From Candidatus Heimdallarchaeota archaeon (GTDB lineage: Archaea > Asgardarchaeota > Heimdallarchaeia > Heimdallarchaeales > Heimdallarchaeaceae), in the NCBI GenBank assembly GCA_016839945.1, contig JAEOTE010000007.1, positions 115,799-179,798 of the forward strand: DNA of 64,000 bases, in the 5' to 3' direction. The translations under genes and the position numbers were made by a program. Below the pieces are notes generated by a model that saw only the letters and a list, made by a program, of their open reading frames with translations, had not been told where the DNA came from and made no database searches. Each line of letters opens with the position of its first letter. Position 1 is the first letter of the stretch. Of the stretch, positions 1-11,812 are shown piece after piece.

Positions 1-3000
1 TTTGTGCAAAAATATCCCAAAGTGTATGAATATTGTTCTTATGAAGTTCAGCTACACTTTGTGGATTGTCACTAATTATATCACTTAGATAATAAAATGG
101 TAAATCTAGATTTCGTTTTATCCTTGAAACCTGAATACTATTCAACTTTGAGGTTTTCACAATCAGTTCTTCGGAAACATTCAAATGTGCTATAGTTGTA
201 TATCCCGATTTGATTAACAGTTTTCTAATATTAGCATCAAATAATCCTATTTTCTTGACACTGTAACTCTTACTCTTCAATGTTTCATTGACTAACTGGC
301 TATTCATCTTATCTTGAAGAGACTTTACAATTGCTTGCTCTTGTTCAGTTAGACTTACGCTTATCGCTTTTCTTATATCTGGAATTGAAACAAAATCAAT
401 AACTTGGATTATACCTTCGTTATGGAATTTTTCCAAAAGTCTTGGTTGATTAATGAATATAAGCATTGGAGCTCTTAACTTCTCGATAATTTTCACAATT
501 TCAGAAGAATAGTCTTTAGGATCTTTGCTTTCAATATATTCAAGTAAAATTCCTATAGTTCGAATATCTTCTTTGCGTAGGAATGATAGTATTTCTTTGT
601 CCTTTATGAACGAACTAAGTCTCTTCTGTTCAGAAGACATCATCCTTTCCACTCTTGTAGAGGAAAGTTTAGGTAGAAGAGATGTACATGTTGTTTCATA
701 TTCTATTTCACTTAATGATTTACAGTAAATTAAGAAATCAAAAACAGTCTGAAGCTTCATCTTATTCATTAAGTCATAAATCTTCTTATTTTCTCTAACA
801 GGTGGAAGAGAAAAAAGATCAGTTTCTACCATGTTCTTTAATGAATCTGAGGTCTTCCAAACACTGCTTGTTTTTGATTTAGCTTGTTTATTGAATACAA
901 GCGCTTCTTCAACTGATAGGATAAAACCTTTCTTAAGGATGGAAATATTGCTTCCTGAAAGTAAATCTTTAGGTATGCTTGTTAGGCTTCCTTCCAACTC
1001 CTTCAAAGTAATTAATGAGATATTCCTTAGATTTCTTAGGAAAACTGGATCAGGGATTTGGCTCTTAATCTTATTATAATCCTCTAACAATAATTCGTCT
1101 ATACTCCTATAGGGAAGTTTTGAGATGATATCAACTTTCAACCTGTTTGGTTGAAGTAGGATTATTGTTCTTTTTAGATGATATGAGAGTTCATTATACT
1201 TCTTGCTTATCTTAGAATGAAGCTTTGAAATTGTTTTATTATAGAGTTCTTTTTCATGTTTTTGCAATAACAAAAGGTATTCTATTGAGGAATCTGACAT
1301 ATCAAGTTTTTGATCTTTTGATTCAAGATTTAATACTTGCATCAGAGTTATACCTTTATTGAAAATAGAATTAATGGCATTTTGAATATCTTCTCTTTGT
1401 TTTTTGGTTACACTTATCTTATTGAGATTCATTGATAAATATGCTAAATCTAGTAGATTGAGAGAATATTCAGTTTTTGATACTAAATCCTTAAGCACTA
1501 ACTTTTCAAATACTTTTATTTTATCAAGTAAATAATTAGGAATCTTATCTAATGATACTTCTTCATCAAAAAGATCGGAGTAATACTTGATACTTCTCTG
1601 ATTTAGAATCGCTATATCCTTTGCAGAGAATATCTTACTTTCTTTTATCACTGGATGGCTTCCAAAATTACTGCTTGTTAAAGAGTATCTTATTTTTTCA
1701 ACTTCTGCTTGTTTTAATAAGAGAATTGAAGCAAGTTCTTTGTTAGTTAATAGATAAAATTCTTCTAAATTCTTAACATAGTTCTGTATGTTTTTCCAAC
1801 TCTTAATTGTAACATCAGGAAGGAGTAAAAGCTCAATGGGTAGTTTTAGAATTCTCTTTATTTTGTTTGCCAGAGATTTGGAAAATGTGAACGTTTCTTT
1901 GTTTAAAGCAAAAATCAAATCATCCATTGTTGAATAATGTTTCTGAATTTCTTTCTTTGTTTCAGAATCGAAAATTTTCACTCTGCTTAACTGTACTTTC
2001 TTCTTAACATCTGTTTCAATTTTCTTGTAAGTTAGTGAAGAGGTAATTTCTAGGATTTTATCTTTCAATTTAGCAGGGGACAATATCATCCAAGAAGAGA
2101 TGGGTTTTATTATGAGATCTCCTATAGTGTAAATACTCTTATCTTCTAAAATCTGTAGATCTGCCTTTGTTAGAACAGCGAGTGAGGAAATGGGTTTGGA
2201 GAATGTTTGTTCAATTTTGAGACCCAAATCCGATAGTGAATCCTCTTTTTGATATAGTGTTGTTATTAAATCCAATATACTCTTAATTTTTGTTGTTTTT
2301 GTTTTCTTTGTGAACAATTCTTTAACATCGCTTTCCTCTATGTATTGATCTTTGGATATATAATTAGCTATTATACCTTCTTTTGATGCTAAGTAGTCTC
2401 CTAAGAATCCAACAATATTTGCTTTTTCTGTAGCATCACTTGTTTTCATTAAATCTCGAAAAGTTACTATTCCAGAATCTAAATAGTTGCTTTTTATTTC
2501 ATTTAGATTCTTTTGATTGATTTTTGGATAATAAAGGACAGAAGTGTTATAGACTTCTTCTGCTTTATTTTGAATTTGTTTAATCTTTTTCTCTGAAACT
2601 AACCAGTCGTAAATTGTGTTATTCATTAAATCCTCGAGATTGTAAATTCCTATAGATTTCAGATAATTTCTGTCTTGAGCTGATAGGAAGAAAATTTCTT
2701 TCAAGTTTTGTTCTGCAACGGAATCTATTCGTTGAACAATCGAATCTACTTTGAAATTCTTAATAGTATTTTGAATAGTTGTGACTTTTACTTTTGAAGT
2801 AGTTGCAATAACTTTAGGAGATAGATAGAAGATATCTGCAATAATATTAACACCTGCAGATTTCATTTTCTCTAAATCTTTAGGATCAAAATCTAGAAAG
2901 CGTAGATTCGCCAATAAATATGGAGTAATTTTCTTGAAAATGACTTCATCATCTTTGAATGTAGGTGATGTCAATATTGATTTGTATGAAGAATATCCTT

Positions 3001-6000
3001 TGTTTGATAAATCAACTTCTAATTCGGATAATGGTTCTTTAAATCCCTCTTCTTTTATACCTTTTATTAACGAGAGAGAGAGAATAATTTCATCTTGAAT
3101 ATTCTTTGGTAATTTATTAAGGAATATCAAATGCTCAATGATGGTTGTGAACCCTTTTTCATAACAATAATCTAGTGACTCTTTTGTTATTGAGGATAAA
3201 TAGCTGATATTATTGGATAATTGACTTCTGTAGTCATCAACTTCTTTTCCTTTTACTTTACTATTAGTTACGATATGACTAACAGGAACGAAGAAAAGAT
3301 GCTCAACTGTTGTTATACCTATTTGAAGGAGAGAAGTTGCTGTCTTCTTTGGTAATCCCAACATTTCAATTGAGATACCAAACTTATCAATTTTCTTCAG
3401 GTTTTTAACAAGATAATCTGGTTCTTCTTTCTGTTTTGTAATAAGCTTACTAAAACTTGCTGGCCAATTCTTCTGAGGTATAGCTAACAAATCGTTATAT
3501 GTTGTTATATTACTATTTAACAAGTCTTTAATTTCTGTATCTTTCAGCTTTAATGATTTTCCAATTAACGTTATTGGGGTTAATAAAATAGAGATGAGTT
3601 TTACAAGATTTTTCTTTTCCTCAATAGGTATTGGTATTAAATCAAGATTAAGCTCTGATGCTTGAACTAGAGATACACAACCATACTCGGAAAGAATGGT
3701 TTTGGTTTCCTTTGTTATTTCAGAGAATAGGCTTAAATCAAGACCTATTAATTTTACATTTTCTTCTAATGATTTAATATCAATAGTTGTTTTAATGGTC
3801 CTTATTTTTTCTTCTGCAACATTGATTAGTTTGGCTAAGAGTGGAGCTGGAATGAGAAGGAATTGGTAAAGGTTTCGAATGCCATTGTGTTTTAGTTTTT
3901 CTATTTGTTTGGAAGTTAGGTTACCTATATAGGATAATGGAATACTTTTTAGTGATAGAAGTAGAGGGCAAACTTCTGAGAGTAATTCTCTTTTTTCTAC
4001 AATCTTACTATCTAGTGATAAAAGCTCATCTAGATAGAGTATTTTTTCATCCTTTAATCTCTTAATAAGAGCTGAATCTGAAACAATCTTAATATCAGAG
4101 AGTTTGATCGCCCATTCTGGAGGGCTTATCTGTATAACTATACTATTAAGAACCTCTACTATTTTAGAATGCAGATCATGATTTTCCTCTTTCTCTGATA
4201 AACATAATAATCCTGATACAATGTTGTTACAATCGCTTTGAGACAAAATATTCAATTGTGCAATGTTAAGCTCAACGTTAGAAATGAGCCATGAAATTGG
4301 CTTAAACATATTTGAAGTGATTATTCTGATTAATGATTTCTCGATATCTCCAAAATCAAAAACTGGGTGAGGTATGAAATCTACTAATAATAGAGCACTT
4401 GATAATCCATATTTCATAAATTGTTCTTCTGCTTTATTTGGAAAGGAGAGAGCATGATCAATATAGTATGAAAATGTTTCTGACATTCTTGTACTCAAAT
4501 TAAATTCTCTTTGGAATATTCTTATTTGCTTTGCTACAGCTTTTGGTATACCAATTATTGTGTTGACATTTGTTGAGAGAAGTTCAATAACATGTTTAAT
4601 ACCATTATTCCATAGAACTCCTTTAGAAGAAATATCAAAACCTGGTAATGCAAGAACATTCAAACACAGAAAGCTAACTAATTGTTCAATAAATGCTATG
4701 CTTGAGATTTTTTCTATTCTTTCAGATTCTGATAGTTGTAGCAGTGCATCTGGGATAAAACCAAATATATCTTCTACAGCTTTTTTTGTTGGATCGAATT
4801 CAAGAGATTTAAGCAAGTTGATTATAGGTTCGTTAAGGGTTAATGTTCTACCTTTTGAAAGTGTGAAAGTGCCTTTCCTAGCTGAACTTATGGTTTTTGG
4901 AATTGAACCATTCAAGGCTCGTTTCAAATCCTTATCTGAACAATTAAAGAGATCAATCAACCTCAGAATTCCTTCACTAGTTAAGTTTAGTTTCTCCTCT
5001 GAAGATAACTCTGAAATTCGGTAAATTGAGATGTGACACGCGTTTAGAAAATCTCTCATATAGTCCCCAGAGACACTCAATGTAGGATATGCTTGATAAT
5101 TTGAACTATACAAATCTTGAACATGTATTTTTCCAGATTTAAGTAGAGAATTAATTTTTCCCTTTGATAAAACAAAGAAGTTTACTAACTCGACACCTTT
5201 TCGTTTAACTTCTTTCATCAAATTAGAAGGAGTGATTTTGTCCAAGTATGTTTGCACTTTTTTCTCTGACATGTTTAGTAAAAGAGAGATTGTAGAAACA
5301 TCCTCTGTAATAAAGGAGAGGATATCACCTACACCTGAATATATAAGCTTCATTACATGATGATTATCTAAACCAATAAAAGCTACAGAAGAGCGATATA
5401 GTTGCACTTCTCTAAAGATATCTAATCGAACTAGAGCAGGACGAGATTCTCTTATTTCTTCCATTCTTGATATAAAGTCTTGTACGGAGTTGATACCTAT
5501 ATCTAGTAGTTTTTCGAGATAATCTTCCTCAATTGAAGGACAAACAGTAAGAGGTATAGCAGAACTAATTCTTCTTTCTGATAACTCATCGAATGATATG
5601 AGATCTAGTGCATGAAACTCTTTGTATATTGGATTTTGCGTAATTGTAAATAACTCATCTCTATTCAATAAAGCAAGATCTATAACGGAATTTATTTCAT
5701 GATACTCCAGACGTTTAATTTCATCATAAGATAGAAAGCCTATGAATCGGATTGAGCCAGATAAGAGTTCTTTTGCTTTCTTATATACGTCAACTTGAAG
5801 TATTTCAGAGATACCTAACAAAGATGCTGAATAGAAGAGAGTTTCAATATCTGTAATCCCTAAATCTTTTAGCTCATCTAGTTTTTTCTCTGGTATTAGT
5901 TCTGATGGTCTTATTAAGTGAGATTGTGATAAACGGAAGGACACAATATCGGTGTAGGTTAGACCTTCTTTTATTTCTCTTATTTGTTTCTGGGAAAAAC

Positions 6001-9000
6001 CAGAGATTTCTGAGAGTTGCTTTTCTGGAAGTGAGAAGAAATCAATCAATGTATTAATTGAAGATTTGCTCAACTTGAGAGTAAGTTCTCTTGGAAGCCC
6101 CATGGAAGCTATTGGGATTGCTAATTCCATTATTAGTTTATTAAGAGAGTCAGTCTCCATTAAACTTGAGAAGAAAGGCGAGAGGGCAGAATGTTCCTCC
6201 AGATTTATTTCAAATACATCACCAATTATGACGTTTTTGTATTCTTCTCTACGAGCTTTTCTGATCTTAGTGAAGAAGGGTGTGATTCTAAGAGGTAACT
6301 CTAAAATTGATCGAATTAATGTTAGATTATAATGATCTGTAAGGTATTGTTTGTCTTTACCAGTTAAGTCTTTTATAACTTTTGGATCAGTAATAACATC
6401 TGATAACGTTTTATTTTCTACTTCTTGAATAACCCTGTTGAAATATGATGAATTATATACAGATGCAGGTAGTTTAGCGAAGTAATGGAAAGCTTGCATT
6501 ACTATTATTTTTGAAGAATATGTAGAAACAACTCTGTAAAGCACTGGGTCTTTAAGATCTATATCAGGAATGAAAAGTAATTGGTAAACATAATGGATAT
6601 CATTTTGTTCTAAAACCTCTAATGAAAATTCTGAAATCTCTGTAAAAATCTTCAAAGGTAAGGTGAGGTATTTCTTAACAGCTGATATCTTTATCCACAA
6701 TTCTGGATTAGAGAAATAATACTGTTCTTCTATAGTATAGAATATTTCTTGAATTGTTTGGAATCTTTCAAAGTGGAATATTGAATCTTTACTCAATAAT
6801 CTTTGTTCAAGTTTATCAAACAATTGAGTTTCAAAAGCAAAAATACCCTTTTGTTCATACATTGCTTGAATGCTTGAGGATGTCAGAGAAGTTATTATAC
6901 TTTCAGCATCCTTTGGAGAGATTTTTATGAGTTTGCTTAGTTTTTGAGATGATGCAAGAATAAACTCAGATATTGTTTTTATTCCATTTTCTCTTAGAAT
7001 TTCTGTTTGACTAAATGAGAGCGATGGTAAGAAATAAACAGGTAGTGAGAAGTAGCCAAATATATCTGAAAAGTCTAAAGCACTTTTTATTGTTTCAAAT
7101 CTTTCATCTGGTATTCCTGTTTTTTCCATCAGAACTTCAGGAGAGGATAACATAAAACCAAGTAAAGTCCTTATTTTTGCTTTTTCTAATAGTTCTATGA
7201 TTTCAGGATCTAGCATATCAGAAATATGATCCAAAGATAGATTCAAGATAGCTTTAAAGGATTCAATAACATCCCATGGTAAAATTTCCTCATTCCACTT
7301 ATCTTTTGAAGTTGAGAAGTATAAATCCTCAATTGTCATTATGTTATTTTCATCCAACACTCTGACAATTCTAGGTTCTAATATTCCTAATTCAGAAAGG
7401 TCAATTCCAGTATCACTTATTCTAACATTCCTTTGAAGAAGTATAGCTTCTTCATTATCTACTCCTAAGAAAGAAGCAATATCTTCAGATTTACTTACTA
7501 GTAAATCAATAATTTTAGTGATTCCATTATTTCTCAAAATGTTGAGTTGTTGGGTTGTCAAGGTTCTAGTTTGGACCTCTTCTATTTCTTGTGTTTCTTC
7601 GGATTCTTCAACTTGAACAGTTTTCTTGATGATTTTCTCCCATGTTACTAGTGTTAAAGGAGACCTCAGTAGCTTTCTGAACTTATCAATGACATTCCAG
7701 TTAACTACTGCTGAAGAAAAAGTGAGAGGGTGGGCTAAGTAAAAAATCTTATCCACTGTATCATAGCCAGAAAGTATTAGTGATACAATTTCGTGTGAAG
7801 AAAATCTCTCTGATTCTTCGTATTCAAATGATATTAGAGAAGTATATTTATTTCCTGATTTTTCAAAGAAATGAGTACCTTTTTTCTCAATTGCGAAAAC
7901 ATCTATTAATTGCTGGGTTTCTTGAGTAGACCTTACTAAAGTAGCTGCTAACTCATCAATAGTATATTCAAATAATTGATGAATAGCTGTTATCCCTCTG
8001 TTCCTTAATTTATCAAAATCTTCAAGAGTTAACTTACTTATTCTAGAAATTGGTAAACCTAGAGTTTGAACGAATTCATCATATTCACTAATTAGTAAGA
8101 TTTCCTTACTAAATTGATCAGTTTCTGAAAATGTTCTATTCTTGATATTATTGTGAAGCTCAATAACAAGTTTTCTTTCTTTAGCAGTGTTTAACTCAGA
8201 TTCAATAATTTCTGGAATAAGATCTAAAAATTGTCTTACTGTTACAATATTTCTTAATTTCAAACGAAGAAGAGCTTCTGTAAGCAGAGATAAATCCTTG
8301 AATTTGTCTGGATATAGTTGAGTAAGTTCGATTATTTCCATATTCGCTAATTGATTTAAATGTCGAATATTTTCCCAAAAACCTGTATTCAATGTTGGTT
8401 TTTCAGTAGGGTAAACACTGTATAGATCTTGGATTGTTAGGTTATGTTTTTCTATGAATTGAACTAATCTTGGATATTGGTTACTAAGTAAACTCAAACT
8501 CTTTCCAAATTCTGTTCTATTCTTTTTTACTTCTTCTTCACTTATTGATTGTTTTAAATCCTTTACCCTTTCTTCTGATATGTTTAATACATCAGATAAA
8601 TCAGAATTAGACCAGATTGAGAACCTGCCAATACAGTTTATTCCTATTTCTTGCAATAAATATGATTGCCTTCTTAATGAAGGAAATGCAAAAGATATAG
8701 GAGTTAATAAAAGATTTGCAGTTTCTAGATATGTTCTTTTTGCTTCTCCTGTTAGATTGTAAGCTTCAGGAGGATTGTAAAAAATTTCCTCAATAGATAC
8801 TATTCCTGCAGTTTTTAGTGTTTCTTGATGTTTTATCCATTTGAATATTGGAGTTCCAAGACTCTTTTTTATTCTCTCAACATCTTTTTTTCTCAAACCT
8901 AACTTTCTTAATTGAGGTGATGGAAATGCTAAGAATGCAGTAGTTGTAAAAATTTGAAGATTAACTAATTGTTGCTCAATATCCTTTGGTATTACTTTAA

Positions 9001-10110
9001 CGTGAGACAAATCTTTATCTTTCTTTGACTCTCGAATGTGAGATATTAATTTGTGTTTTGATTCCTTGAGTAGTAGATCACCTATCAATTTGTAATCTCT
9101 TTTCAAAATTGATGCTGTGGGTAAAGAGATTAGGTTAGTAAGAGTCTTTATACCTTTTTGAGATAGAACCTTTATGGCTTCTGTTTCCTCTTCCCTAAGT
9201 ATTTCATCAGAAATTAACTCAAATTTAGATAGTTCAATAGATTCTGAGGATTTGACTAGAGTATCTAGAAAGGTATTGTACAAATTCCTCTCTAGTTCCT
9301 TTATTACAACAAGATCATCTAGTTTAGCATTAATTAAATCCTCAATTGTTTTTATTTTTCTTCTATGAAAAGCGTTCTTAGTATAAGCATCTGTCCAATC
9401 AGGTTTCATCTTAGTTACATTGGTCTTAGAAAATGTAGGAAACTTATCACATAGTTGAGAAAAAATATTTTGCAGGTAATTAACTAAAACAGCTGTTACT
9501 TCTGTTTGATAGTTTACTGAATATGGTAATTTTGTTTGGTAAAGAAATTCTTCAATGGTTGTATCTTGAGATATCAAACCTTTAGAATTATCTTTTAGAT
9601 ACTCAAAAGTTGGAAATAGTGTATCTATTTTTATGTCATCAACTTTGGTGAGTGAAGCCAGAAGTTGTTTTCTTTTTTCTGATTTAGCTTTACTTGTTTT
9701 ATCCTTGGTTAGTAAGTACTGATGAAGGAGCTGTTCTTTTTTATTTTCGAAAAGTTTCTCTAGTAATCCAGTAACTGTTTGTAGTTTGTTAAAATCTGTA
9801 GCGAAATAATGGTAACTGTTTTGTATCCATCTTCGATATAAAGCCTCTTTTAATGTGATTATAGTTTTTTCATTTTGAGTAAATCTTCTTTCTATAGTTC
9901 TACTTACAAAGAGTTTAGGATCAAAACTAGGGCTCATTCCCTCTCTATCAAGTTCAGATATCGTTCTAAGTTTGATATTGTAGATATCTTGTTTAGTAAG
10001 TTCTAACAGTTTTGCTATATTATCAGATGGTGTTATGAGAAAATCAGAAATAGATTCAATATTGTTTGTTCGAAGAACTGATTGAATTCTTGATGGACAC
10101 CATACATTAG
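1..10110 (-). repeat. Protein-level tandem array of HhH-like units (about 65-75 aa each, about 45-50 by eye) in the extension of the Top6B-like gene
   Basis: Recurring pattern L..xGIxTIxDLL....xxLxxxxxISxxxVxxIKxxL, e.g. LRNNGITKIIDLLVSKSEDIASFLGVDNEEAILLQ, LRENGIKTISEFILASSQKLSKLIKISPKDAESIITSL, LLQIGITTVEHLFFVPVSHIVTNSKVKGKEVDDY. Left boundary open. Confidence 0.75.
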
Positions 10111-11812
10111 CACCAAATAATCTTCTTCCCAAAGGCATGAAGAGCTTAACTTTTTTTGTTGCACCATGAGCCAAGGCCGCAGCAATTCTGTCAGTTTCTA
10201 ACCTAAAATCAGTATAATTAACTGCTTCATCTTCTAAAATTTTTGTTAGATTATCTATGATTATTGGTGCAGATCTTACAAAGCGTGATAATCTTGCATG
10301 CTCTCTTCTTCTTCTTTTAGCTCTGCTTAAAAATGTCTTTAGTCTTCTCCCCAACTGCATTAATGCTAATCGTATCTCTTCCTCAATCTCAGGAACAATG
10401 GATATATATTCTTTACTTGTTTCTGGAAAAGGAATCTTAGTACTTACTACTGATACAGCTACAGCTAGAGGATCAGATTGCCTTGTTAACCCATATTCAT
10501 TCCATCTTATTGAAGAAACAGTATGAGAAATAACATCGTTCCCTGCTCCAAATATGAGTGGGATACGATTTGCGTACCTATAAATTATTTTATTATCTTG
10601 AACGGTAGCTCCCTTTACTTGCGAAGCTTCATTTACTCCCCCTCCATAACCTATTGCTACTTCTACAACAAAGGGATGACCAGAATAAGCTTTAGGAGCT
10701 CTTGTTACAGCTTCTACAAATTTAGGTTCCAGTTCTTTTTCTAAACCCCTCCTTAATCTATTCGATCCTAATGGTGATAAAGCAGTACCTTTTGGATCAT
10801 CAAACTGAAATATTCTATCTCTTTTTCTTTTAACATCTTTCGCTTCTTGGTAAGCTTTTACAAAACCTTCATGAACTATTCTTCTGATTTCGTGAGAGGT
10901 AATATCTTTTGGAGATTTGTTTGGATCAATCTCTAAAAGTTGGAAGAAACCTTCTGCTATTTCCTCATTTACTCCCATGAATTGTGTTGCTAGAAATTGC
11001 TTGAGTGTTTTGCTTTGACTTGCAGTTAATTCTGCCTTGAACTGAGTAATATCACACCCCCATGGATGAATTTTAACTGGTTGAGGAGGGGGAGGCATAT
11101 CATCTACAACACTAAGAAAGTCCAGATCTTCATATTCACCTTCTTTATCTGCAGGAACTTTGATTTTAAAACTGGAATAAGGGGTAATAATTGCTAATTG
11201 CTTAAAATATTCTTTTACGCTATTCTTAGCAAGCCTCCATGCTCCTGTAAAAGTGATTGATATTTCTGTTCCAGGTTCTTCAAGATAGTTTGGATCTCCT
11301 GGTAGGTACTCACGTTGTTCCATGATTACAGGTTCGTTCTTTTCAAGATTTATCATTAAATGAAGCTCATGGGTAATATCATCCATAAAGTATCTGCTTC
11401 GTATTTTTGCAGGTAAGTCAACAGATGACATAGAGTATAGCAAACACATTTTTGCTCCTAAACCAAAACGACCTCGTGTTTGAATTACTCCGTATTTTGT
11501 TCCAGTCAATACTCTCCCAAAAAGTTCAGCAATCTGGTGTCCAGGAACTCCTATCCCATTATCTTTACAGGTTAGTTGTAGAAAATCTAGATGCTTTTCT
11601 AATTTTCTGTATTGCGTAACATCAAGCAATTCATTTATTTCTCTGCTGGAAAGTTTTCTTAAGTCTAAATCAATAACAGGATTAATTCCTCTTTTTTCTG
11701 CTGCATCTAGTCCATTCTCAACTAACTCTCTGATACTTGTGAAAACAGCTCTCATTGAATTACCAAAACCAGCAATGGCTCTGTTTTCATTAAAGAAAGC
11801 AGCAGCTGACAT
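1..11812 (-). CDS. Giant topoisomerase VI subunit B-like protein (GHKL ATPase, H2TH and transducer regions) with a very long C-terminal helix-hairpin-helix repeat array; 3' end lies outside the window
   Basis: Reverse-complement translation from ATG at 11812 gives MSAAAFFNENRAIAGFGNSMRAVFTSIRELVENGLDAAEKRG...CKDNGIGVP...TRGRFGLGAKMCLLYSM...GHPFVVEVAIGYGG...RYANRIPLIF...STKIPFPETSKEYISIVPEIEEEIRLALMQLGRRLKTFLSR, matching Top6B motifs. The frame is still open at base 2 (...SVAELHKNNIHTLWDIFAQ). No minus-strand ORF is listed in 1-11812, consistent with one frame open to the edge. An in-frame GTG at 11839 is an alternative start. Confidence 0.93.
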   Translation of the reverse strand, partial: MSAAAFFNENRAIAGFGNSMRAVFTSIRELVENGLDAAEKRGINPVIDLDLRKLSSREINELLDVTQYRKLEKHLDFLQLTCKDNGIGVPGHQIAELFGRVLTGTKYGVIQTRGRFGLGAKMCLLYSMSSVDLPAKIRSRYFMDDITHELHLMINLEKNEPVIMEQREYLPGDPNYLEEPGTEISITFTGAWRLAKNSVKEYFKQLAIITPYSSFKIKVPADKEGEYEDLDFLSVVDDMPPPPQPVKIHPWGCDITQFKAELTASQSKTLKQFLATQFMGVNEEIAEGFFQLLEIDPNKSPKDITSHEIRRIVHEGFVKAYQEAKDVKRKRDRIFQFDDPKGTALSPLGSNRLRRGLEKELEPKFVEAVTRAPKAYSGHPFVVEVAIGYGGGVNEASQVKGATVQDNKIIYRYANRIPLIFGAGNDVISHTVSSIRWNEYGLTRQSDPLAVAVSVVSTKIPFPETSKEYISIVPEIEEEIRLALMQLGRRLKTFLSRAKRRRREHARLSRFVRSAPIIIDNLTKILEDEAVNYTDFRLETDRIAAALAHGATKKVKLFMPLGRRLFGANVWCPSRIQSVLRTNNIESISDFLITPSDNIAKLLELTKQDIYNIKLRTISELDREGMSPSFDPKLFVSRTIERRFTQNEKTIITLKEALYRRWIQNSYHYFATDFNKLQTVTGLLEKLFENKKEQLLHQYLLTKDKTSKAKSEKRKQLLASLTKVDDIKIDTLFPTFEYLKDNSKGLISQDTTIEEFLYQTKLPYSVNYQTEVTAVLVNYLQNIFSQLCDKFPTFSKTNVTKMKPDWTDAYTKNAFHRRKIKTIEDLINAKLDDLVVIKELERNLYNTFLDTLVKSSESIELSKFELISDEILREEETEAIKVLSQKGIKTLTNLISLPTASILKRDYKLIGDLLLKESKHKLISHIRESKKDKDLSHVKVIPKDIEQQLVNLQIFTTTAFLAFPSPQLRKLGLRKKDVERIKKSLGTPIFKWIKHQETLKTAGIVSIEEIFYNPPEAYNLTGEAKRTYLETANLLLTPISFAFPSLRRQSYLLQEIGINCIGRFSIWSNSDLSDVLNISEERVKDLKQSISEEEVKKNRTEFGKSLSLLSNQYPRLVQFIEKHNLTIQDLYSVYPTEKPTLNTGFWENIRHLNQLANMEIIELTQLYPDKFKDLSLLTEALLRLKLRNIVTVRQFLDLIPEIIESELNTAKERKLVIELHNNIKNRTFSETDQFSKEILLISEYDEFVQTLGLPISRISKLTLEDFDKLRNRGITAIHQLFEYTIDELAATLVRSTQETQQLIDVFAIEKKGTHFFEKSGNKYTSLISFEYEESERFSSHEIVSLILSGYDTVDKIFYLAHPLTFSSAVVNWNVIDKFRKLLRSPLTLVTWEKIIKKTVQVEESEETQEIEEVQTRTLTTQQLNILRNNGITKIIDLLVSKSEDIASFLGVDNEEAILLQRNVRISDTGIDLSELGILEPRIVRVLDENNIMTIEDLYFSTSKDKWNEEILPWDVIESFKAILNLSLDHISDMLDPEIIELLEKAKIRTLLGFMLSSPEVLMEKTGIPDERFETIKSALDFSDIFGYFSLPVYFLPSLSFSQTEILRENGIKTISEFILASSQKLSKLIKISPKDAESIITSLTSSSIQAMYEQKGIFAFETQLFDKLEQRLLSKDSIFHFERFQTIQEIFYTIEEQYYFSNPELWIKISAVKKYLTLPLKIFTEISEFSLEVLEQNDIHYVYQLLFIPDIDLKDPVLYRVVSTYSSKIIVMQAFHYFAKLPASVYNSSYFNRVIQEVENKTLSDVITDPKVIKDLTGKDKQYLTDHYNLTLIRSILELPLRITPFFTKIRKARREEYKNVIIGDVFEINLEEHSALSPFFSSLMETDSLNKLIMELAIPIASMGLPRELTLKLSKSSINTLIDFFSLPEKQLSEISGFSQKQIREIKEGLTYTDIVSFRLSQSHLIRPSELIPEKKLDELKDLGITDIETLFYSASLLGISEILQVDVYKKAKELLSGSIRFIGFLSYDEIKRLEYHEINSVIDLALLNRDELFTITQNPIYKEFHALDLISFDELSERRISSAIPLTVCPSIEEDYLEKLLDIGINSVQDFISRMEEIRESRPALVRLDIFREVQLYRSSVAFIGLDNHHVMKLIYSGVGDILSFITEDVSTISLLLNMSEKKVQTYLDKITPSNLMKEVKRKGVELVNFFVLSKGKINSLLKSGKIHVQDLYSSNYQAYPTLSVSGDYMRDFLNACHISIYRISELSSEEKLNLTSEGILRLIDLFNCSDKDLKRALNGSIPKTISSARKGTFTLSKGRTLTLNEPIINLLKSLEFDPTKKAVEDIFGFIPDALLQLSESERIEKISSIAFIEQLVSFLCLNVLALPGFDISSKGVLWNNGIKHVIELLSTNVNTIIGIPKAVAKQIRIFQREFNLSTRMSETFSYYIDHALSFPNKAEEQFMKYGLSSALLLVDFIPHPVFDFGDIEKSLIRIITSNMFKPISWLISNVELNIAQLNILSQSDCNNIVSGLLCLSEKEENHDLHSKIVEVLNSIVIQISPPEWAIKLSDIKIVSDSALIKRLKDEKILYLDELLSLDSKIVEKRELLSEVCPLLLSLKSIPLSYIGNLTSKQIEKLKHNGIRNLYQFLLIPAPLLAKLINVAEEKIRTIKTTIDIKSLEENVKLIGLDLSLFSEITKETKTILSEYGCVSLVQASELNLDLIPIPIEEKKNLVKLISILLTPITLIGKSLKLKDTEIKDLLNSNITTYNDLLAIPQKNWPASFSKLITKQKEEPDYLVKNLKKIDKFGISIEMLGLPKKTATSLLQIGITTVEHLFFVPVSHIVTNSKVKGKEVDDYRSQLSNNISYLSSITKESLDYCYEKGFTTIIEHLIFLNKLPKNIQDEIILSLSLIKGIKEEGFKEPLSELEVDLSNKGYSSYKSILTSPTFKDDEVIFKKITPYLLANLRFLDFDPKDLEKMKSAGVNIIADIFYLSPKVIATTSKVKVTTIQNTIKNFKVDSIVQRIDSVAEQNLKEIFFLSAQDRNYLKSIGIYNLEDLMNNTIYDWLVSEKKIKQIQNKAEEVYNTSVLYYPKINQKNLNEIKSNYLDSGIVTFRDLMKTSDATEKANIVGFLGDYLASKEGIIANYISKDQYIEESDVKELFTKKTKTTKIKSILDLITTLYQKEDSLSDLGLKIEQTFSKPISSLAVLTKADLQILEDKSIYTIGDLIIKPISSWMILSPAKLKDKILEITSSLTYKKIETDVKKKVQLSRVKIFDSETKKEIQKHYSTMDDLIFALNKETFTFSKSLANKIKRILKLPIELLLLPDVTIKSWKNIQNYVKNLEEFYLLTNKELASILLLKQAEVEKIRYSLTSSNFGSHPVIKESKIFSAKDIAILNQRSIKYYSDLFDEEVSLDKIPNYLLDKIKVFEKLVLKDLVSKTEYSLNLLDLAYLSMNLNKISVTKKQREDIQNAINSIFNKGITLMQVLNLESKDQKLDMSDSSIEYLLLLQKHEKELYNKTISKLHSKISKKYNELSYHLKRTIILLQPNRLKVDIISKLPYRSIDELLLEDYNKIKSQIPDPVFLRNLRNISLITLKELEGSLTSIPKDLLSGSNISILKKGFILSVEEALVFNKQAKSKTSSVWKTSDSLKNMVETDLFSLPPVRENKKIYDLMNKMKLQTVFDFLIYCKSLSEIEYETTCTSLLPKLSSTRVERMMSSEQKRLSSFIKDKEILSFLRKEDIRTIGILLEYIESKDPKDYSSEIVKIIEKLRAPMLIFINQPRLLEKFHNEGIIQVIDFVSIPDIRKAISVSLTEQEQAIVKSLQDKMNSQLVNETLKSKSYSVKKIGLFDANIRKLLIKSGYTTIAHLNVSEELIVKTSKLNSIQVSRIKRNLDLPFYYLSDIISDNPQSVAELHKNNIHTLWDIFAQ

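Follow-up and report, generated by a model that had tools for sequence, protein, structure and literature searches.

A topoisomerase VI B subunit with a giant (HhH)2 arm in Heimdallarchaeia

Topoisomerase VI (topo VI) is present in nearly all archaea. Spo11 descends from its A subunit, and its B subunit, Top6B, has so far been seen as an ATPase clamp of compact size. In the 64,000-nucleotide stretch of Candidatus Heimdallarchaeota DNA analysed here (the window), one minus-strand frame begins with Top6B motifs and continues through helix-hairpin-helix (HhH) repeats to the window edge. Is this frame genuine, is its product still a topoisomerase subunit, and what might such an arm do? An earlier note on the sequence had proposed a DNA-tracking or chromosome-organising machine, or else a Top6B paralog independent of Top6A.

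The frame is a single uninterrupted minus-strand ORF from ATG 11812, with GTG 11839 as a possible alternative start. The contig, from a 3.0-Mb assembly of 186 contigs (genome 88% complete), extends 115 kb leftward of the window, and the giant top6B frame is therefore complete. Leftward extension, as the earlier note had suggested, places the stop 673 bp outside the window with top6A directly adjoining, so that the frame seen open at the edge extends to 4,161 aa. The features are as follows.

Positions 1 to 11812, running on to window position -673 (L002:7126-19611), minus strand: giant top6B gene, 4,161 aa in total.
Positions 10223 to 11812, minus strand: canonical Top6B head, residues 1-530 (GHKL ATPase, H2TH region and transducer), from PF09239, NF003218, TIGR01052 and 2zbk_B.
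Positions 10280 to 10348, minus strand: extra-basic end of the transducer stalk, residues 489-511 (RRLKTFLSRAKRRRREHARLSRF), from the sequence and conserved in giants.
Positions 2 to 10195, minus strand: (HhH)2 arm, in-window residues 540-3937; the arm extends to about residue 4085 beyond the window.
Positions 6593 to 7825, minus strand: best conserved arm stretch, residues 1330-1740, with a beta-hairpin insertion, from the ortholog alignment.
Positions 5954 to 6097, minus strand: strongest single (HhH)2 unit, residues 1906-1953 (iE 6e-14), with a PF03118 alpha-CTD match.

Orthologs of 4,120-4,304 aa are found in 15 Heimdallarchaeaceae assemblies including the source (two are cut by a contig edge); one of the 15 is the complete genome of Ca. 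Heimdallarchaeum endolithica PR6 (CP084167). Purifying selection acts on the arm: in close pairs, dN/dS is 0.03-0.05 in the head and mostly 0.06-0.17 in arm blocks; one low-divergence pair is higher, with 0.12 for its head and arm values reaching 0.30. An assembly artefact, an untranslated readthrough or a decaying frame is thus extremely improbable. Some relatives are contig-cut, one is frameshifted and two are broken near N runs, which would fit such an explanation, but full or near-full frames of near-identical length in 15 assemblies, the complete genome among them, arm-block dN/dS well below 1 and a confidently predicted fold (see below) rule it out, and the continuity from the Top6B part into the repeats holds. 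The frameshifted relative, G028, is a MAG of the same order in which a single frameshift splits the gene into a 625-aa Top6B and a 2,996-aa HhH array, followed by Top6A (L069:2970-12001, L102:4969-15809); the split is either a sequencing error or natural. In the single-contig Heimdall MAGs bin272 and bin76 (L047, L048), the gene is broken with N runs nearby, and these MAGs look like concatenated contigs.

By sequence comparison, residues 1-530 are a complete, canonical Top6B. Residues 2-525 align end to end with solved Top6B structures (2zbk_B, E 2.6e-82; M. mazei 2q2e_B, 1.2e-59), PF09239 matches at 2e-54 (184 bits against a cut-off of 24), and the NCBIfam equivalog cut-offs are exceeded for both NF003218 (447 bits against 274) and TIGR01052 (385.6 against 380.7). 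The Top6B motifs that had been recognised in the first ~520 aa are thereby confirmed. In particular, the N, G1 and G2 boxes are kept in the giants (ELVEN with E29 and N33; DNGIG, residues 84-88; GRFGLGAKM, residues 114-122), as is the transducer switch lysine K459 (in STKIP), aligned with 2zbk_B. Heads within Heimdallarchaeaceae share 98-77% identity. Pfam, structure-sequence and NCBIfam searches of the giant Top6B found no topo V catalytic domain; the head is that of Top6B.

Top6A (469 aa, L002:5715-7124) lies directly downstream on the same strand, with Top6B ending at L002:7126 and Top6A starting at L002:7124. In alignments with 2zbk_A and 1d3y_A, its Tyr210 falls on their active-site Tyr, and the Toprim domain is retained. 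Since the ATPase boxes, the transducer lysine, and the catalytic tyrosine and Toprim of Top6A are all present, strand passage is the activity to be expected of the pair from their families. The genome yields one Top6B match, one Top6A match and one gyrase B; the second, normal-length topo VI that the earlier note had proposed to look for was not found in this 88%-complete genome. An intact Top6A with the catalytic Tyr lies directly downstream in every relative with sufficient assembly, except two broken MAG joins. The notion of a Top6B derivative that works without Top6A is contradicted by these observations and has hardly any likelihood left: nothing was found to support it, whereas the sole Top6B found in the genome abuts the only Top6A found there, and the two genes are co-inherited. 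The Top6A partners of Top6B proteins of at least 2,190 aa measure 463-472 aa and carry an N-terminal extension of ~100 aa that is missing from the 363-387-aa forms. The region farther downstream of top6A (L002:403-3353) encodes a Ras-family GTPase and a HEAT-repeat protein of 785 aa that weakly matches condensin Cnd1.

Beyond the head, residues ~540-4085 form a solenoid of about 50 (HhH)2 units, according to Pfam, a unit HMM and AlphaFold tiles. The arm adds ~3,600 aa and makes the subunit ~8 times as long as a usual Top6B. Pfam matches in the tail, all above cut-off, include RAD51D_N (95 bits), HHH_5 (43) and RNA_pol_A_CTD (39). The unit HMM built in this analysis (consensus LSPEEIEKLKKNGITTIEDLLLTPSEELAKILGLSEKEIEKIKKSLNL) finds about 36-40 units at iE<1 in the giant Top6B and, over all relatives, 788 domains at iE<0.05 compared with 1 in shuffled tails; of the control ORFs taken from these loci, the G028 tail that is split off alone reaches such scores. 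AlphaFold2 tiles modelled with ortholog alignments consist of repeated HhH units, with mean pLDDT 86.5 and pTM 0.71 for residues 1250-2210 and mean pLDDT 87.3 and pTM 0.60 for residues 3000-4090, and in these tiles 29 first hairpins are counted over 2,052 aa, one every 63-72 aa. This spacing gives about 50 units for the whole arm, in agreement with the 45-50 HhH-like units estimated previously, and the pLDDT of 86-87 makes the HhH fold a confident one. Foldseek pairs single units with the N-terminal domain of RAD51C (prob 0.97) and with the RNAP alpha-CTD. Fragments of topo V are among the top matches, without being significant, and no structural homolog of the whole array was found in the PDB at E<=0.001.

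Units are at most 37% identical to one another within one protein, which rules out a recent tandem expansion, and many are 40-68% identical to the unit at the same position in PR6. The array is therefore ancient and position-specific. Residues 1330-1740 are kept in giants from Hodarchaeales and Borrarchaeum to Heimdallarchaeaceae. A phylum-wide search with this conserved arm module gave strong matches only in the armed clade, and weaker ones in other families; no free-standing copy was found, in that no match at E<1e-50 fell outside the Top6B frame or its contig-cut fragments.

Among the Asgard and TACK Top6B proteins examined, the arm is limited to one clade, Heimdallarchaeia plus Borrarchaeum/Sifarchaeum. 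Armed Top6B measures ~4,200 aa in families f1 and f2, 3,569 aa in f3, 3,470 and 2,190 aa in f4 (the latter from the 1.4-Mb RS678 genome), ~2,315 aa in f5, 1,115 aa in f7, and 2,289-2,294 aa in Borrarchaeum and Sifarchaeum marinoarchaea. Up to about residue 2,250, the arm runs colinear with the proteins of ~2,300 aa from Hodarchaeales (B3_Heim, Hodarchaeota bins) and Borrarchaeum, and the longer forms carry additional distal units. No HhH units occur in the other Asgard Top6B examined (Loki-type, 1,000-1,250 aa; others, ~500-830 aa) or in TACK; the extra length of the Loki-type proteins (L168, L169, L172) lies in an N-terminal extension and in internal insertions, and a candidate from family f15 (L054) proved to contain no units.

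In the Top6B tree, the tailed heads form one clade (100/99) whose sister is the tailless, 543-aa protein of Sifarchaeum subterraneum, and the tail trait changes once. A nesting of the long Sifarchaeum and Borrarchaeum copies within Heimdallarchaeia, which would point to transfer, is not upheld: vertical monophyly is not rejected (AU p 0.057). Borrarchaeum and Sifarchaeum marinoarchaea each have a pair of complete topo VI operons lying side by side in ~14 kb (L104:4169-18413, L115:663-14876); the Top6B of one operon is ~560 aa long, that of the other is HhH-armed and ~2,290 aa long. Family f7 also has a ~500-aa Top6B copy, and in the Hodarchaeales genomes searched, the giant is the only Top6B found. 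We infer that the gene was duplicated, that one copy grew the arm, and that Heimdallarchaeales and Hodarchaeales lost the short copy.

With the last 110 aa removed, the array has a pI of 5-7 in most relatives. Its net charge is -115 to -40 in several families, and some Heimdallarchaeaceae arms are mildly basic; these figures are whole-array charges, compatible with a basic inner face of the solenoid. In the giant Top6B, the middle of the array is acidic, and the basic regions are the stalk root (residues 489-511) and the tip. Unit positions 4 and 37, which we take from our own alignment to correspond to DNA contacts of the alpha-CTD, hold K or R in 26% and 33% of units against D or E in 40% and 30%, respectively. 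Subject to that alignment, alpha-CTD-type contacts are not conserved across the units. Gly is present in the first hairpin of 52% of units, and K or R at unit position 43 in 73%.

A lysine-rich tail of low complexity makes up the last ~80 residues. Within it, just beyond the window (L002:7126-7359), lies a KQxTLxD-type motif, and all 13 complete Heimdallarchaeaceae Top6B proteins have such a [KR]QxTLxx motif (KQTTLLDM-like) in the otherwise variable tip; among armed relatives outside Heimdallarchaeaceae, the KQxTLxD-type motif is absent. In this genome, canonical PIP boxes close the sequences of FEN1 (QKSLDSFF) and PolB (QKSLDTWF). The motif of Top6B has the Q and L of a PIP box but no aromatic pair (positions 7-8). 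It resembles a degenerate PIP peptide, and PCNA binding is a lead only.

The giant Top6B shares its head motifs, and its Top6A partner the Tyr and Toprim, with the archaeal topo VI of S. shibatae (2ZBK) and M. mazei (2Q2E). However, solved Top6B chains have ~470-620 aa and lack the 3,600-aa arm, and the Top6A of solved topo VI has 369-389 aa compared with 469 aa, N-terminal extension included, at this locus. The nearest structural precedent for the array is, as the earlier note had indicated, Methanopyrus kandleri topo V, in which a topoisomerase domain is likewise followed by tandem (HhH)2 repeats. Topo V is an unrelated type IC enzyme with 12 repeats that form a positively charged track (PMC9489208) and with AP-lyase sites, whereas the giant is a type IIB ATPase subunit with ~50 mostly neutral or acidic repeats. 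Single arm units have the fold and sequence pattern of the (HhH)2 domains of the RNAP alpha-CTD and the RAD51 N-terminus. Those domains occur once per protein, and the arm units do not as a rule keep their DNA-contact residues.

C-terminal domains of Top6B have been tied to the presence of gyrase by Villain et al. 2022 (PMC9348778), where the domains in gyrase-encoding archaea are Ig-like in Euryarchaeota II and of other kinds in Asgard and DPANN. Like the giant arm they follow the transducer, but they are single domains (~100 residues in Euryarchaeota II), and the passages of that main text consulted do not mention a giant HhH arm. In our set, gyrase B is present alongside the long arms of families f1-f6, while f7, Borrarchaeum and RS678 also have an armed Top6B but their genomes gave no gyrase match. 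A simple link to gyrase is therefore disfavoured, and the arm is not a general gyrase adaptation. In Hodarchaeales, the genes form a gyrB-gyrA-giant top6B-top6A cluster in which gyrA and top6B overlap by 4 bp (L139:2946-15865). Searches of the open-licence literature found no description of an HhH-armed Top6B, and within that literature the claim that no such architecture had been described stands. The Top6B head with its ~50-unit arm is a bona fide topo VI whose arm is unprecedented in that literature.

We tentatively favour, at somewhat less than an even chance, an intact topo VI with two long scaffold or tether arms that are mostly non-DNA-binding and contact DNA mainly at their basic ends. 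The giant Top6B and the adjacent Top6A would form an ordinary A2B2 strand-passing enzyme, as the complete motifs and the gene pairing suggest, and each B subunit would extend beyond the transducer stalk as a ~50-unit (HhH)2 solenoid and then a lysine-rich disordered end. The stalk of M. mazei topo VI touches the G-segment and terminates in a helical hairpin that lies on the winged helix of Top6A; the C-terminal domain follows this hairpin (PMC5922973, PMC13040014). The giant arm begins just past the extra-basic stalk end, apparently where M. mazei Top6B has that Ig-like C-terminal domain, which would root two very long scaffold arms beside the G-segment. The arms may keep the enzyme in place and draw remote DNA or partner proteins towards it; DNA would probably be contacted mainly at the basic root of the stalk and at the lysine-rich tip. 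As a point against, total Top6B length differs between families, from 1,115 to 4,304 aa, and a fixed arm length is therefore not required.

The arm could instead be a DNA track or clamp as in topo V, serving processivity, salt resistance or the organisation of long DNA. The unit fold is that of the topo V repeats, and topo V fragments are among the top, insignificant Foldseek matches; the first-hairpin Gly and the basic residue at unit position 43 are also in keeping with DNA binding. Moreover, only some repeats of topo V touch DNA, and the interior of its HhH cavity is only slightly positive (PMC9489208). On the other hand, an array that is neutral to acidic, strongly negative in several families, and does not conserve the contact positions 4 and 37 of our alignment differs from the topo V track, so that continuous tracking is possible but not favoured. 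We regard this explanation as unlikely, and the DNA-tracking machine of the earlier note as doubtful; the chromosome-organising role that the note also suggested stands as a possible candidate. Alternatively, the arm may be chiefly a hub where proteins dock (gyrase, SMC/condensin, replication or cytoskeletal factors), or it may fold back on the enzyme as a regulatory sleeve, in neither case acting directly on DNA. The acidic mid-array, the individually conserved units with a hotspot at residues 1330-1740 and its beta-hairpin insertion, and the Hodarchaeales gyrase-topo VI cluster would suit docking. Yet the arms without a gyrase match in three lineages indicate that gyrase is not the general partner, and the lysine-rich tip suggests some DNA contact; this proposal, too, is more doubtful than promising.

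The preferred reading of scaffold arms on an intact topo VI can be carried one step further. Arms of up to ~50 (HhH)2 units could provide a built-in chromosome scaffold or long-range tether for decatenation in Heimdallarchaeia, anchored at the stalk next to the cleaved segment and at a basic, possibly clamp-binding tip, a proposal with a real but minority chance of being right. In Heimdallarchaeaceae, the PIP-like tip might tether topo VI to the replication machinery for decatenation.

Heimdallarchaeia are the Asgard group proposed to be closest to eukaryotes, and Hodarchaeales have been proposed as the sister of eukaryotes. The extension is kept under selection across Heimdallarchaeia, Hodarchaeales included. 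Top6B proteins of 543, 1,115, ~2,300, ~3,500 and ~4,200 aa make up a natural length series for testing what a long arm gives a topoisomerase, which also bears on whether the arm links untangling to chromosome organisation or to replication. If the scaffold reading is true, a lineage close to eukaryotes would possess a topoisomerase that carries its long-range tether as part of the same protein.
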